Assembly (NCBI GenBank): GCA_902500785.1
Contig: CABVRW010000028.1
Coordinates: forward strand, 2,359 to 46,848
Direction: 5' to 3'
Length of the DNA: 44,490 nucleotides
Origin: an uncultured Nitrospira sp.
Lineage (GTDB): Bacteria; Nitrospirota; Nitrospiria; Nitrospirales; Nitrospiraceae
The notes below the pieces were generated by a model that worked only from the letters and a program-made list of their open reading frames with translations, had not been told where the DNA came from and searched no databases. Made by a program: the position numbers and the translations under genes. Within the stretch, counting starts at the first letter, position 1. Every line of letters starts with the position of its first letter. Shown piece after piece: positions 37,196 to 42,000 of the stretch.

Positions 37196-37530
37196 TGACT
37201 CGAGTGGTGAGGATGGTGGAGGAGGCGCTCGCTCGAACGCCCTCTTCGACGCCTTCGGTCGTAAGGCTCAAAGTCAGTACGCAATCTCATTTCTTCGAGC
37301 ACGATGAGGCGACGCTGCAGTCGGTCTTTGCTGCTGCCGCCGAAGGAACGATTGCTGCGCGGGCCGCGCTGGAAATTCTTCCGGTGCCTGTGACAAGTCA
37401 CTGTGCGCACTGCGGGGCGTCCTGCGAGATGCAGGCCCTGTTGCAATGTTGCCCTGGTTGCGGGTCGGCAAACTTGGACGCGGAGCCGGTCCCTGAAGTG
37501 GTGTTGCACGAGGTGGTGGTGAAGGAATGA
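37177..37530 (+). CDS. hypA: Hydrogenase nickel incorporation protein HypA
   Basis: 117 residues from GTG 37177 (GGAGGGG upstream). HypA delivers nickel to the large subunit, normally with HypB. The N-terminal Met-His-Glu that binds nickel is kept (MHEWQLMTRVV). The zinc site is formed by two CXXC pairs, CAHCGAS and CPGCGSAN. A canonical hypB GTPase gene is not found anywhere in the window, so HypB would have to be encoded elsewhere or replaced. It overlaps hypF by 4 bases (ATGA). Confidence 0.92.
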   Translation: MHEWQLMTRVVRMVEEALARTPSSTPSVVRLKVSTQSHFFEHDEATLQSVFAAAAEGTIAARAALEILPVPVTSHCAHCGASCEMQALLQCCPGCGSANLDAEPVPEVVLHEVVVKE

Positions 37531-39857
37531 GACGGGACACCATAGTACGCCTGCGTATCACCGTGGAGGGAACGGTCCAGGGAGTCGGATTCAGGCCGTT
37601 CGTGTTTCGCCTGGCGCAAGACCTCGGGGTAGCCGGATGGGTGATGAATGGTGCCCGTGGCGCATTGCTGGAACTTGAGGGGTCCGTGGCTGTGGTGGAG
37701 AGCTTGCTGGAACGGATGCAGAGAGAAACGCCGGCCGCAGCGAAGATGGGCCGGCTGACCGTAGAGCCTGCCAGTCCGACTGGCGAGGTCGGCTTTCAAA
37801 TTCGAGCCAGCGAAGGTGTTGGCACGCGGCGTCTGGTCGTCTCTCCCGATCTTGCAACCTGTTCCGATTGTCTGGGGGAGTTGAGCGATCCGATGGATCG
37901 GCACTTCCGCTATCCCTTTCTCACCTGCACTCAATGTGGCCCGCGCTTCAGCCTCATCACGGACATCCCCTATGATCGCGCGAACAGCACGATGAATCGA
38001 TTCGACCTCTGCCGGGATTGCCGTGCGGAGTATGGGGATCATGGGAATCGTCGCTTCCATGCCGAAGCGATTGCCTGTCCGATGTGCGGTCCCCGATTAG
38101 CCTTGTGGGATGTACAGGGACACGTGGTGGCTCGTGAAGAGGCCGCGCTGCAGCAGGCCTGTAAGATTCTCCGGAAGGGCATGATCCTCGCGGTCAAGGG
38201 TGTCGGGGGATTTCAGTTGTGGGTGGATGCCTGCTCCGAGTCAGCGGTGCAACGGTTGCGTCTGCGCAAGATGAGACCGGACAAACCCTTCGCGGTGTTA
38301 TTTCCGTCCCTGTCCTCTGTGCTGGAGTCATGCAGTCTGGGGTTGGAGGAAGAGAGCCTGCTGCGTTCCTCCGAAGCACCGATCGTGTTATTGCGACAGG
38401 TTGAGGCGTCGAGGCTGGCTCTCTCCGTGTCGCCTGAGAATCCCCATATCGGCGCCATGCTGCCCTACAGTCCGCTCCACCATCTGCTGATGACCGGGTT
38501 GCAGAGTCCGGTTGTGGCCACGAGCGGCAATCGTGCCGAAGAACCGATCGCGATCGATGAAGGGGAGGCGCTGGTTCGCCTGGCCGGAATCGCGGATGCG
38601 TTCCTCGTGCACGATCGGGCGATCGCGCGACCGGTCGATGATTCAGTCCTTCGGGTGGTTGAGGGCGAGCGGGTGATTCTCCGGCGAGCGAGAGGATATG
38701 TGCCTCGACCAATCAGGATACCGGCGCCTCTTCCGAGCGGACGCGTGATGGTCCCGATCCTGGCGGTCGGAGGCCACCTGAAGAACACGATCGCACTGTC
38801 GTCCGGTAATGAGGTCCTGCTGAGCCAGCATCTGGGCGATCTGTCTACCCTGGAGGCCTTTGAGGCGTTTCGTCACACAGTCGATGATCTGCAACGGCTG
38901 CTCGACGTACAGCCAACACTCGTCGCCTGCGATCTCCATCCCGACTATCGATCAACCAGGTTTGCTCAGGAATTCGCCACGCGCCAGGCGGTCCCGCTCG
39001 TGCAAGTGCAACATCATCATGCGCATGTTGCCGCCTGTATGGCGGAGCATGGATTGGATGGCCAGGTGCTGGGGGTGGTGTGGGACGGGTCGGGGTACGG
39101 ACTTGACGGCCGGCTGTGGGGCGGAGAGTTCCTTGTCGCCGGGTATCCAGGCTTCACGCGTCTCGCCCATCTTCGGCCCTTTCGCCTGCCGGGCGGAGAG
39201 ATGGCGATGCGCAAACCCTGGCGCTGTGCCTTCTCACTCCTGTGGGAGACCCATGGTGAGGGCGTGGCAATTCAAGAACTGGGAGCCCGGCGTGGAAGAC
39301 AAGGAGAGCCGGATGCTCTCGCTGTCCTTTTGAATACCGGCGTAGTCTCTCCCGAGACCACCAGCATGGGACGCCTGTTCGATGCCGTAGCTTCGCTTGC
39401 AGGCCTGTGTGATGAGGCCAGCTTTGAAGGGCAGGCGGCCATGGCGCTGGAGTTTGCCGCCGCACGTTATGAAAAGACTGCACCCGGTGATGAGACGGGC
39501 TACCCGTGCCCTATCCGACAGGGAGACGATAGGTCAGTTGAGTGGGTCGCCGACTGGCGACCGCTGATTGAGTTGCTACTGGAGGAGAGACGCACGGGGA
39601 GCAGCCCGGAACGAATCGCGTTTCGATTCCATCTCGGTCTGGTTGACCTGATCGGTCAGATTGCAGAACGAGCCGCGTTGCCGCGAGTGGTGTTAACCGG
39701 TGGATGTTTCCAGAATGCTCTGTTACTCCGGCTTGCGCGGCACCGGTTGGCGCGAGCGGGGTTTACCGTCTACGGCCATCGACTGGTACCGCCCAATGAC
39801 GGGGGACTGTCCTTGGGCCAGACGGTCGTGGCGGCACACCGTTCCGGTCACGCATAA
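37527..39857 (+). CDS. hypF: Carbamoyltransferase HypF
   Basis: 776 residues, full length. HypF uses carbamoyl phosphate and ATP to carbamoylate the C-terminal Cys of HypE, the source of the cyanide ligands of the active site. Domains in order: acylphosphatase-like (VQGVGFRPFVFRLA, about 1-95), a zinc-binding segment with four CXXC pairs (CSDC, CTQC, CRDC, CPMC, about 110-190), a YrdC-like nucleotide domain (about 205-390, with KGVGGFQLWVDA and KMRPDKPFAVLF) and a Kae1-like domain from about 410 with the metal motif HHHAHVAACMAEH. Its substrate could come from CarAB, encoded in the same window. Confidence 0.96.
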   Translation: MRRDTIVRLRITVEGTVQGVGFRPFVFRLAQDLGVAGWVMNGARGALLELEGSVAVVESLLERMQRETPAAAKMGRLTVEPASPTGEVGFQIRASEGVGTRRLVVSPDLATCSDCLGELSDPMDRHFRYPFLTCTQCGPRFSLITDIPYDRANSTMNRFDLCRDCRAEYGDHGNRRFHAEAIACPMCGPRLALWDVQGHVVAREEAALQQACKILRKGMILAVKGVGGFQLWVDACSESAVQRLRLRKMRPDKPFAVLFPSLSSVLESCSLGLEEESLLRSSEAPIVLLRQVEASRLALSVSPENPHIGAMLPYSPLHHLLMTGLQSPVVATSGNRAEEPIAIDEGEALVRLAGIADAFLVHDRAIARPVDDSVLRVVEGERVILRRARGYVPRPIRIPAPLPSGRVMVPILAVGGHLKNTIALSSGNEVLLSQHLGDLSTLEAFEAFRHTVDDLQRLLDVQPTLVACDLHPDYRSTRFAQEFATRQAVPLVQVQHHHAHVAACMAEHGLDGQVLGVVWDGSGYGLDGRLWGGEFLVAGYPGFTRLAHLRPFRLPGGEMAMRKPWRCAFSLLWETHGEGVAIQELGARRGRQGEPDALAVLLNTGVVSPETTSMGRLFDAVASLAGLCDEASFEGQAAMALEFAAARYEKTAPGDETGYPCPIRQGDDRSVEWVADWRPLIELLLEERRTGSSPERIAFRFHLGLVDLIGQIAERAALPRVVLTGGCFQNALLLRLARHRLARAGFTVYGHRLVPPNDGGLSLGQTVVAAHRSGHA

Positions 39858-39910: not shown

Positions 39911-41641
39911 ATGTACCGCCGTGTGATGGCGTTTGATTTTGACGGCACGCTTGCTGTGCATGGGGTGGTTCCTCGCGAGCTTGAAGACGCCCTCGAACAA
40001 TGCCGTGCTTCGGGCCACGCCCTCTTTCTTGTCACGGGTCGCCGTTTCGAGACGGTCTCTCTAGGCCGCCTCAGCCAAGTGTTCACCGGCATCGTGTGGG
40101 AGAACGGGGCGGTCCTGTTTCACACTGCCACCGGTGAAGTCTATCTGCCCTTCGGGCAGCTGGAAGACCGCCTTGTGCAGGCGTTGAAGGACAAGGAGAT
40201 TCCCCTCGAACAGGGGTTGGCCATTGCGGCAACCTGGGTGCCACATGACCAGGAAGTATGGCAGGTGCTCGGCGCGCAGGGTGGCGGCGCAGTCGTCGAG
40301 TATAACAAAGGCGCGGTGATGATTTTGCCGGCTGGCGCGGCGAAAGGGGCTGGCTTAGAACGCCTGCTCACGATCTGCGGGTTTTCCGCGCACAATCTGG
40401 CGGCGTTCGGAGATGCTGAGAACGATATCTCGATGCTGCGGCTTTCCGAAGTCGCGGTGAGCGTCGGGGATGCCGTGTCGGCCGTTCGAGAGATGGCTGA
40501 TGTGGTCGCGTCTCAGCCTGGCCCGGCAGGCGTGCTGGAAATTCTGGACCGGTACCCCTTGGCTGGCAAGTACTTCGACATTCCCTTGCGTCGCGAGCGG
40601 CGCATTATGGTCGGACGGGATAAGGAGGACCGCGAAGTGTCGCTACCGGGGTCCCGTCTCGCCGGACGGAACCTGGGCGTATTCGGGGATTCGGGCACAG
40701 GCAAGTCCTGGGTGGTGGGACTTCTGGCCGAAGGACTGCACCACGAGGACTATCAAGTCCTGCTGGTGGACCCTGAAGGAGACTTCCGCGGTCTCCGAGC
40801 CTTACCACGATTTGTGGCTCTGGAGGGAGATCATGTCTCCATGCCGTCCCCATCGGCAGCGGTATCCTTGCTGGAAACCGGGGGCGTGTCGGTGGTGCTG
40901 GATCTCAACCGCTATCCGGTCGCTCTCCGGATCCCCTATGTCGCCGAACTCGTGCGGGCGCTGCGTCCATTGCGTGAGAGAAAGTACCGGCCCCATTGGA
41001 TTGTCTTCGATGAAGCTCAGCAGATATTTCCTCCGGGTGGTGGCGAGGCGACGAACGCGGTGGGTCCTCTGTTGGAACAGGGCGGATGGGGCTTTGTTTC
41101 CTATCGCCCTGATCGCCTTGATCCGATGGTTCTTCATGCCGTGCACCATTGCCTGGCAACGCGCCTGGTGGAGCCGGAAGCGGTCCGGGCGGTGAAAGAG
41201 CATTGTGGCGATTGCGGGATAGAAACGGTGAACTTTGCAGAGATCGCTCCCGGTGAGATCCTCTTGTGTGAGGGCCAAGTGGCCCGTTTGCGCCCGGCCT
41301 TCCGCCGGGTTCCCCATATCAGGCATTTCTACAAGTACCTGGAGGTGCCGCTGCCGCCTGGTAAGCGATTCTGGTTTCGGGATGCGCAGGCGGGCGTGGG
41401 CCAGGAAGCGGCCAGCCTCTATGAGTTCTTGCAGCTGATTCCCAAGGTCCCCCGGGCGAGTCTGGAGTACCACGACCATCGGGAAGATTTCTCGCGCTGG
41501 GCGGAGAGTGCGCTGGGTGACGCGGACCTGGCCGCGCGTCTGCGTAAGCTGGCGCATCGGCAGCTCAAAGGAAAACAGCTGCGGGAGGCCATCCGGGAGA
41601 CGGTCGCGGCGCGATACGAAGAGCTGAATGCGTTACGTTAA
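39911..41641 (+). CDS. HAD-IIB phosphatase fused to HerA-like P-loop ATPase, in the hyp operon
   Basis: 576 residues. An N-terminal Cof/sucrose-phosphatase-type HAD domain (1-215) has motif I DFDGT (9-13), TGR, Lys145 and motif IV GDAEND (167-172). A FtsK/HerA-like ATPase domain follows (about 225-465) with Walker A GDSGTGKS (259-266), DPEGD at 287-291 and Walker B IVFDEAQ (364-370). A C-terminal tail (about 485-545, FWFRDAQ… SLYEFLQLIP … DFSRWAESALGD) recalls, from memory, DUF5752. No signal peptide or membrane segment. Not a known Hyp factor. It starts 53 bases after hypF and ends 98 bases before hypC, same strand. Possible roles include a chaperone-like or metabolite-repair factor for hydrogenase assembly; it may equally be a passenger. 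Domain calls are fairly sure, function unknown. Confidence 0.82.
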   Translation: MYRRVMAFDFDGTLAVHGVVPRELEDALEQCRASGHALFLVTGRRFETVSLGRLSQVFTGIVWENGAVLFHTATGEVYLPFGQLEDRLVQALKDKEIPLEQGLAIAATWVPHDQEVWQVLGAQGGGAVVEYNKGAVMILPAGAAKGAGLERLLTICGFSAHNLAAFGDAENDISMLRLSEVAVSVGDAVSAVREMADVVASQPGPAGVLEILDRYPLAGKYFDIPLRRERRIMVGRDKEDREVSLPGSRLAGRNLGVFGDSGTGKSWVVGLLAEGLHHEDYQVLLVDPEGDFRGLRALPRFVALEGDHVSMPSPSAAVSLLETGGVSVVLDLNRYPVALRIPYVAELVRALRPLRERKYRPHWIVFDEAQQIFPPGGGEATNAVGPLLEQGGWGFVSYRPDRLDPMVLHAVHHCLATRLVEPEAVRAVKEHCGDCGIETVNFAEIAPGEILLCEGQVARLRPAFRRVPHIRHFYKYLEVPLPPGKRFWFRDAQAGVGQEAASLYEFLQLIPKVPRASLEYHDHREDFSRWAESALGDADLAARLRKLAHRQLKGKQLREAIRETVAARYEELNALR

Positions 41642-41739
41642 CGGATCACGGCAAGATCGTCGCACGAGACAGGCTCCCGTTTCCCATCTACGGGCACGTT
41701 GGGTCGGGACGGCGAGCTGTCCATTGGAAGGACATTGAG

Positions 41740-42000
41740 ATGTGCTTAGCGGTGCCAGGGCAGGTCCTTACGATCGCGGACGACCAACTGCGTACCGCGA
41801 CGATCTCGTTCGGCGGCACCATGAAAGAGGTGTCCTTGGCGCTCGTGCCGGAAGCCGCCGTCGGAGACTATGTGATCGTGCACGTGGGATTTGCCATCAG
41901 CAAACTGGATGAGGATGCGGCAAGGCGGTCGCTTGAGCTCTTCGCTGCTCTTGCCAATAAGGAGGCAGGTCGCGCGACTGACGATCAGCCGCGCAGCTGA
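41740..42000 (+). CDS. hypC: Hydrogenase maturation chaperone HypC
   Basis: 86 residues from ATG 41740 with GGAAGGA upstream. HypC forms a complex with HypD and with the immature large subunit, carrying the Fe(CN)2CO unit. The essential Cys2 is in the invariant start MCLAVPGQV. The beta-barrel core (TATISFGGTMKEVSLALV, VGDYVIVHVGFAISKLDE) is normal, with a C-terminal extension rich in Ala and acidic residues. It precedes hypD by 9 bases. Confidence 0.95.
   Translation: MCLAVPGQVLTIADDQLRTATISFGGTMKEVSLALVPEAAVGDYVIVHVGFAISKLDEDAARRSLELFAALANKEAGRATDDQPRS

Follow-up and report, generated by a model that had tools for sequence, protein, structure and literature searches.

The window, a stretch of 44,490 nucleotides from an uncultured Nitrospira sp., contains between the hydrogenase maturation genes hypF and hypC an intact, full-length reading frame, which encodes a protein of 576 residues with a HAD phosphatase part and a HerA-type ATPase part. 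It is rather probable that this HAD-HerA protein is an uncharacterised, stress-linked small-molecule phosphatase controlled by its ATPase part, that its gene was inserted once into the hyp operon and has travelled with the cluster, and that it is not a maturation factor. Most likely the gene is a passenger and not a factor for hydrogenase assembly. For the most part, the finding is thus explained by a member of a widespread family, annotated but uncharacterised, that moved into a hyp operon. The features are the following:

37527..39857, + strand: hypF, upstream neighbour
39761..39816, + strand: hypF 3' stretch that is matched by the decayed copy behind the inserted gene
39911..41641, + strand: HAD-HerA fusion gene, ATG start, 576 aa
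39914..40576, + strand: HAD-IIB (Cof-type) phosphatase domain, residues 2-222, with DFDGT at 9-13 and GDAEND at 167-172; Z 25.1 to 1wr8
40595..41332, + strand: HerA/DUF87-type P-loop ATPase core, residues 229-474, with Walker A at 259-266 and Walker B at 364-370; Z 27.7 to HerA (4d2i)
41333..41638, + strand: C-terminal tail, residues 475-576; DUF5752-like over 495-572 (27.8 bits, cut-off 23)
41679..41727, + strand: decayed second hypF 3' end between the inserted gene and hypC (putative insertion scar, weak in the window)
41740..42000, + strand: hypC, downstream neighbour, located directly behind hypF where related clusters lack the insert

A sequence-only reading of this region had recognised the gene and the three parts of its product, the positions of the Walker motifs included, and all of this was confirmed. 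Pfam matches above the gathering scores were obtained to Hydrolase_3 (E 5.6e-24), to DUF87/HerA (E 1.1e-9; PF01935 with 39.1 bits vs. 23.2), and to DUF5752 (PF19027, E 1.9e-6), although the last match drops under the cut-off in one orthologue (21.8 bits). The NCBIfam model TIGR01484 (62.9 bits, cut-off 41.8) assigns the N-terminal part to the HAD-IIB group. It scores below the cut-off of every NCBIfam equivalog model with a named substrate (phosphoglycolate, sucrose-P, MPG, YidA and so on), therefore the substrate is not readable from the sequence. The equivalog for the HerA DNA repair helicase (NF040819) was not matched either (14.8 bits, cut-off 970). The Walker A (G259-DSGTGKS-266) and Walker B (364-IVFDEAQ-370) motifs are both intact, and an 'SYRP' motif follows Walker B in the ATPase core. 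An alignment of 22 relatives, one of them without the HAD part owing to the end of its contig, revealed that D9/D11, T42, K145, and the GDAEND motif are conserved in the family. Structure prediction, which had been proposed as a check, yielded an AlphaFold model (pLDDT 83.8, pTM 0.77) that supports the HAD and the HerA fold, while the tail was barely covered by the Foldseek/VIA comparison. Residues 2-222 match the archaeal HAD-IIB phosphatases PH1421 (1wr8) and TA0175 (1kyt; Z 22.6), and the part from residue 229 onward matches the HerA core, so that the structure match and the PF01935 score together place this P-loop core with its Walker motifs in the HerA group.

PH1421 and TA0175 are stand-alone enzymes without an ATPase part, unlike HAD-HerA, and in contrast to them the window protein lies below the phosphoglycolate phosphatase cut-off. 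The match to HerA proteins starts at residues 225-229, and the preceding part is the HAD phosphatase in the window protein. The same full-length architecture is found in proteins of about 545-615 aa that are annotated as 'HAD-IIB family hydrolase', for example in Synechococcus PCC 7502 (WP_015146385.1), Aminobacter (WP_286299165.1), and S. meliloti (UIJ93826.1). The branch of the window protein was found only in Nitrospiraceae. It is about 30% identical to these proteins, which are closer to a Nitrospira paralogue (40-50% identity).

The claims that no standard Hyp factor resembles the HAD-HerA protein and that hypB is missing from the locus were right. No hypB above the curated cut-off (TIGR00073) was found at the locus or anywhere in the host genome, and the best host match to the hypB model (80 bits) is UreG (330.8 bits as UreG). 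According to a published survey, the sets of maturation genes for group 3b enzymes are odd or incomplete in Nitrospirales (PMC12342949). All this would be in agreement with the earlier proposal that the protein substitutes for the HypB GTPase, or that it is an added factor for the maturation or repair of [NiFe]-hydrogenase, as would the conserved location of the gene and its inheritance with the cluster under purifying selection (see below). However, hypB over the cut-off is absent in 21 of 25 HypD-positive genomes tested, mostly without a HAD-HerA gene in the cluster, and one of the four genomes with hypB, G003, carries the HAD-HerA gene as well; all four have an about 50% identical HypD. The absence of hypB thus does not track the HAD-HerA gene, and the substitute was rejected. 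Because it occurs with or without the gene, the lack of hypB is rather a trait of these group 3b clusters. The TIGR00073 search of the host genome gave no match at the HAD-HerA gene, and this model is not among the best 25 families listed for the 576-aa protein. Although the HypB/UreG GTPases and the HAD-HerA ATPase are all P-loop NTPases, they belong to different P-loop classes; the structure match assigns the ATPase part to the HerA type, the fold of which differs from that of the HypB/UreG GTPases. Five HypD-containing genomes (G160, G164, G120, G150, G166), four of them with a completeness of at least 92%, have neither hypB nor a UreG-like match to the hypB model. In Nitrospiraceae it may be common that group 3b hydrogenases mature with neither of the two proteins.

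The distribution of the gene also argues against an additional maturation or repair factor. In the genome collection 21 Nitrospiraceae orthologues with 62-97% identity were found, and only the 97%-identical one is located at a hyd-hyp cluster. The matches in 175 Nitrospiraceae genomes fall into three identity bands, which were counted from the search table with small fragments set aside. The first comprises five copies that are at least 85% identical, and all five, from three genera, are located between hypF and hypC. The second comprises about 37 orthologues (61-74%) that are located elsewhere, with no hyp gene in the flanks of up to 1.5 kb at any of the 25 loci examined, and the third comprises paralogues with 30-34% identity in about 29 genomes. 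HypD is present in 64 of the 175 genomes; 30 HypD loci were read, and 25 of them are without the HAD-HerA gene next to the cluster. With five of 30 loci, and with most orthologues elsewhere, the gene is not a conserved component of the Hyp maturation operon. Homologues mostly away from hydrogenase genes, for example beside sugar-phosphate synthases, had been named in advance as the observation that would speak against a hydrogenase link, and exactly this was found, including a relative beside a trehalose-6-phosphate synthase. A role in hydrogenase maturation or repair, including that of a HypB substitute, is thus very unlikely.

The stand-alone orthologue is absent from all five carrier genomes, so that the hyp-linked gene may be the working copy of the cell. 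A mutual exclusion of the two forms was considered and rejected, because with about 37 orthologues in 175 genomes an absence from five of five is expected by chance (about 0.3). In four genomes of one genus, g15 (G052, G114, G107, G079), the stand-alone orthologue, in G107 a remnant, is on the strand opposite to the hyd genes and about 6-10 kb away from them. The distance is about 100 kb in G075, and in other genomes the genes are on different contigs. The four g15 genomes indicate that the tie to the hydrogenase region is not entirely a matter of chance; the nearness may have given the opportunity for insertion, and because of it a functional tie retains a small probability. In G052 the genes for RtcB and archease separate the stand-alone HAD-HerA gene from the hyd cluster (L124). 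The second HAD-HerA paralogue of the host (contig C36, L030:7134-8866) is split into two reading frames near residue 313 and is either a pseudogene or an assembly error, and paralogues are broken also in G021 and G045.

The place of the gene between hypF and hypC is explained by an insertion scar. In the nearest hyp clusters (G142, G164, G120, G150, G151, and others) hypF and hypC are adjacent and there is no insert; hypF is directly followed by hypC in nine HypD loci, namely, the five named and those of G098, G101, G099, and G097. In the carriers, the spacer between the inserted gene and hypC contains a decayed hypF 3' end, which is clear in four of five cases. Compared with the hypF end at the empty site of G120, the spacers of G003 and G119 had scores of 152 and 144 (shuffled maxima 40.5 and 31), and that of G160 had scores of 49 and, with its own hypF as the reference, of 50 (shuffled maxima 33 and 31). 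The spacer of G023 scored 45.5 against the hypF end of G142 (shuffled maximum 34). The remnant in the window is weak, with a score of 28.5 that was equalled by 6 of 300 shuffles. The simplest reading of these sequences would be one insertion at the hypF end with a duplication of the hypF tail, and recombination between the two tails could excise the gene again. No convincing match was found when the flanks of the inserted genes were compared with those of stand-alone orthologues in search of a donor. The hypothesis of a passenger gene, which had been mentioned as an alternative to the maturation factor, is therefore the better one, since the scar accounts for the position and most orthologues are found elsewhere.

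Scars of this kind might not be restricted to one site: in five genomes (G058, G068, G069, G086, G094) the full hypD is preceded, at a distance of about 0.9-1 kb, by a second, partial hypD 5' end of about 40-70 residues. This looks like a further scar of an insertion with duplication, here between hypC and hypD. The gap between hypC and hypD has 4-8.5 kb at L125, L126, and L129 (G052, G114, G107), and in G052 it holds a reading frame resembling a transposase, thus the hyp operon is interrupted there.

In the gene tree one branch separates the hyp-linked from the stand-alone set (support 85/100), and the hyp-linked copies are not resolved as one clade. The tree of the Hyp proteins has the same topology for the five carriers as the gene tree (IQ-TREE), and clusters without the gene are nested among the carriers, some of these branches being weakly supported. 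The concordance of the trees and the nested gene-less clusters indicate that the gene was probably inherited together with the hyp cluster and was lost or replaced in some lines. A scan for promoters and terminators revealed sites that were no more numerous than in shuffled sequence, and therefore operon membership is deduced from the gene order, according to which transcription of the gene together with those of the group 3b hydrogenase is probable. It could be argued that a gene that was inserted once, is absent from nested relatives, and has broken paralogues in several genomes, including the host itself, is a non-functional passenger on the way to loss. This is highly improbable, because the reading frame is full-length, the catalytic and Walker motifs are intact, and dN/dS is 0.10-0.13 (overall about 0.11) over dS values of up to 0.86. 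This purifying selection would keep the gene functional.

With regard to the function, the neighbours of the relatives were read by eye at a modest number of loci and without a statistical background. Of 20 loci with a stand-alone orthologue, 13 have a CBS-domain gene on the same strand, 55-130 bp upstream, and in five of the 20 an AMP-binding/acyltransferase gene follows 13-69 bp downstream; other neighbours are genes for Hsp20, a phosphoribosyltransferase, and a universal stress protein. The Nitrospira paralogue, at the one locus read, is near genes for an alpha-amylase family enzyme, Ku, and catalase. Outside Nitrospirota, the distribution refers to a plasmid collection and one actinobacterial contig. 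Full-length relatives are present on plasmid records of Sinorhizobium, Agrobacterium, Aminobacter, Paraburkholderia, Caballeronia, Synechococcus, and Nonomuraea, and they share 29-32% identity with the window protein and 40-50% with the Nitrospira paralogue. Such distant full-length relatives in rhizobia, Burkholderiales, cyanobacteria, and actinobacteria are annotated only as 'HAD-IIB family hydrolase' or 'HAD hydrolase family protein'. One is near genes for trehalose-6-phosphate synthase and a debranching enzyme, a second near Usp, CBS, phosphoketolase, and acetate/propionate kinase genes, a third near glycosyltransferase and CBS genes, a fourth near hemerythrin and Dps genes, and a fifth near a cytochrome bd oxidase gene, with hemerythrin and catalase genes further off. 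The actinobacterial relative adjoins genes for a carbohydrate phosphorylase and a nucleotidyl transferase, and the annotated stretch around the S. meliloti relative contains no stress or carbohydrate neighbour of these kinds. A hydrogenase gene is absent from all annotated stretches around the plasmid-record relatives. The repeated CBS, universal stress, and trehalose neighbours suggest a role in stress metabolism. Literature searches for DUF5752, for HAD-HerA fusions, and for a link to universal stress retrieved no relevant description.

A different function could be deduced from the ATPase core, which is structurally closest to the DNA translocase HerA and to the HerA proteins of the SIR2-HerA and DUF4297-HerA defence complexes. 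Together with the paralogue near Ku and catalase and with weak PADLOC matches to mad8 and HerA, this would be compatible with a DNA-acting motor in repair or anti-phage defence, the HAD part being a DNA-end or nucleotide phosphatase. However, a HAD part of the Cof/IIB type is typical for small-molecule phosphatases, and the genes are mostly single-copy and occur in recurring chromosomal settings (CBS, acyl-CoA synthetase, MlaC), whereas defence genes would be expected in variable islands. The PADLOC matches are largely confined to the P-loop; the best one, to mad8 (8.2e-9, in a table that gives no cut-off), is weak and partial (231-310). The neighbours read included no NurA, SIR2, or DUF4297 partner. 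A DNA-acting motor is thus unlikely, and it is, like the maturation factor and the decaying passenger, less well supported than the stress-linked phosphatase.

The stress-linked phosphatase would consist of an N-terminal, Mg2+-dependent HAD-IIB enzyme with a fold of the sugar-phosphate or phosphoglycolate phosphatase type, joined to a HerA-type P-loop ATPase and a DUF5752-like tail. By analogy with HerA, the ATPase part may assemble into a ring, and it would control the small-molecule phosphatase depending on whether it is in the ATP or the ADP state. The enzyme might act under energy, osmotic, or oxygen stress, beside CBS-domain proteins, which sense adenine nucleotides, and universal stress proteins. 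Its gene would have entered an ancestral Nitrospiraceae hyd-hyp cluster by a single insertion at the 3' end of hypF, leaving a duplicated hypF tail behind it, and the two would since have been passed on together, by inheritance or transfer. It is possible that a link to the hydrogenase was acquired after the insertion. A bolder version is rather doubtful, namely, that HAD-HerA proteins are a widespread, hitherto undescribed class of metabolite phosphatases gated by a ring ATPase, which form a CBS-linked energy-stress switch that was wired into the group 3b operon in some Nitrospiraceae.

These results eliminate an attractive, but false candidate for the replacement of HypB, and the scar exemplifies a route by which a maturation operon can acquire an unrelated gene. 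They also point to a widespread HAD-HerA family, from cyanobacteria to rhizobia, for which no description was found. In addition, they sharpen a separate question, namely, how nickel is supplied to the group 3b hydrogenases of Nitrospiraceae that have no HypB.
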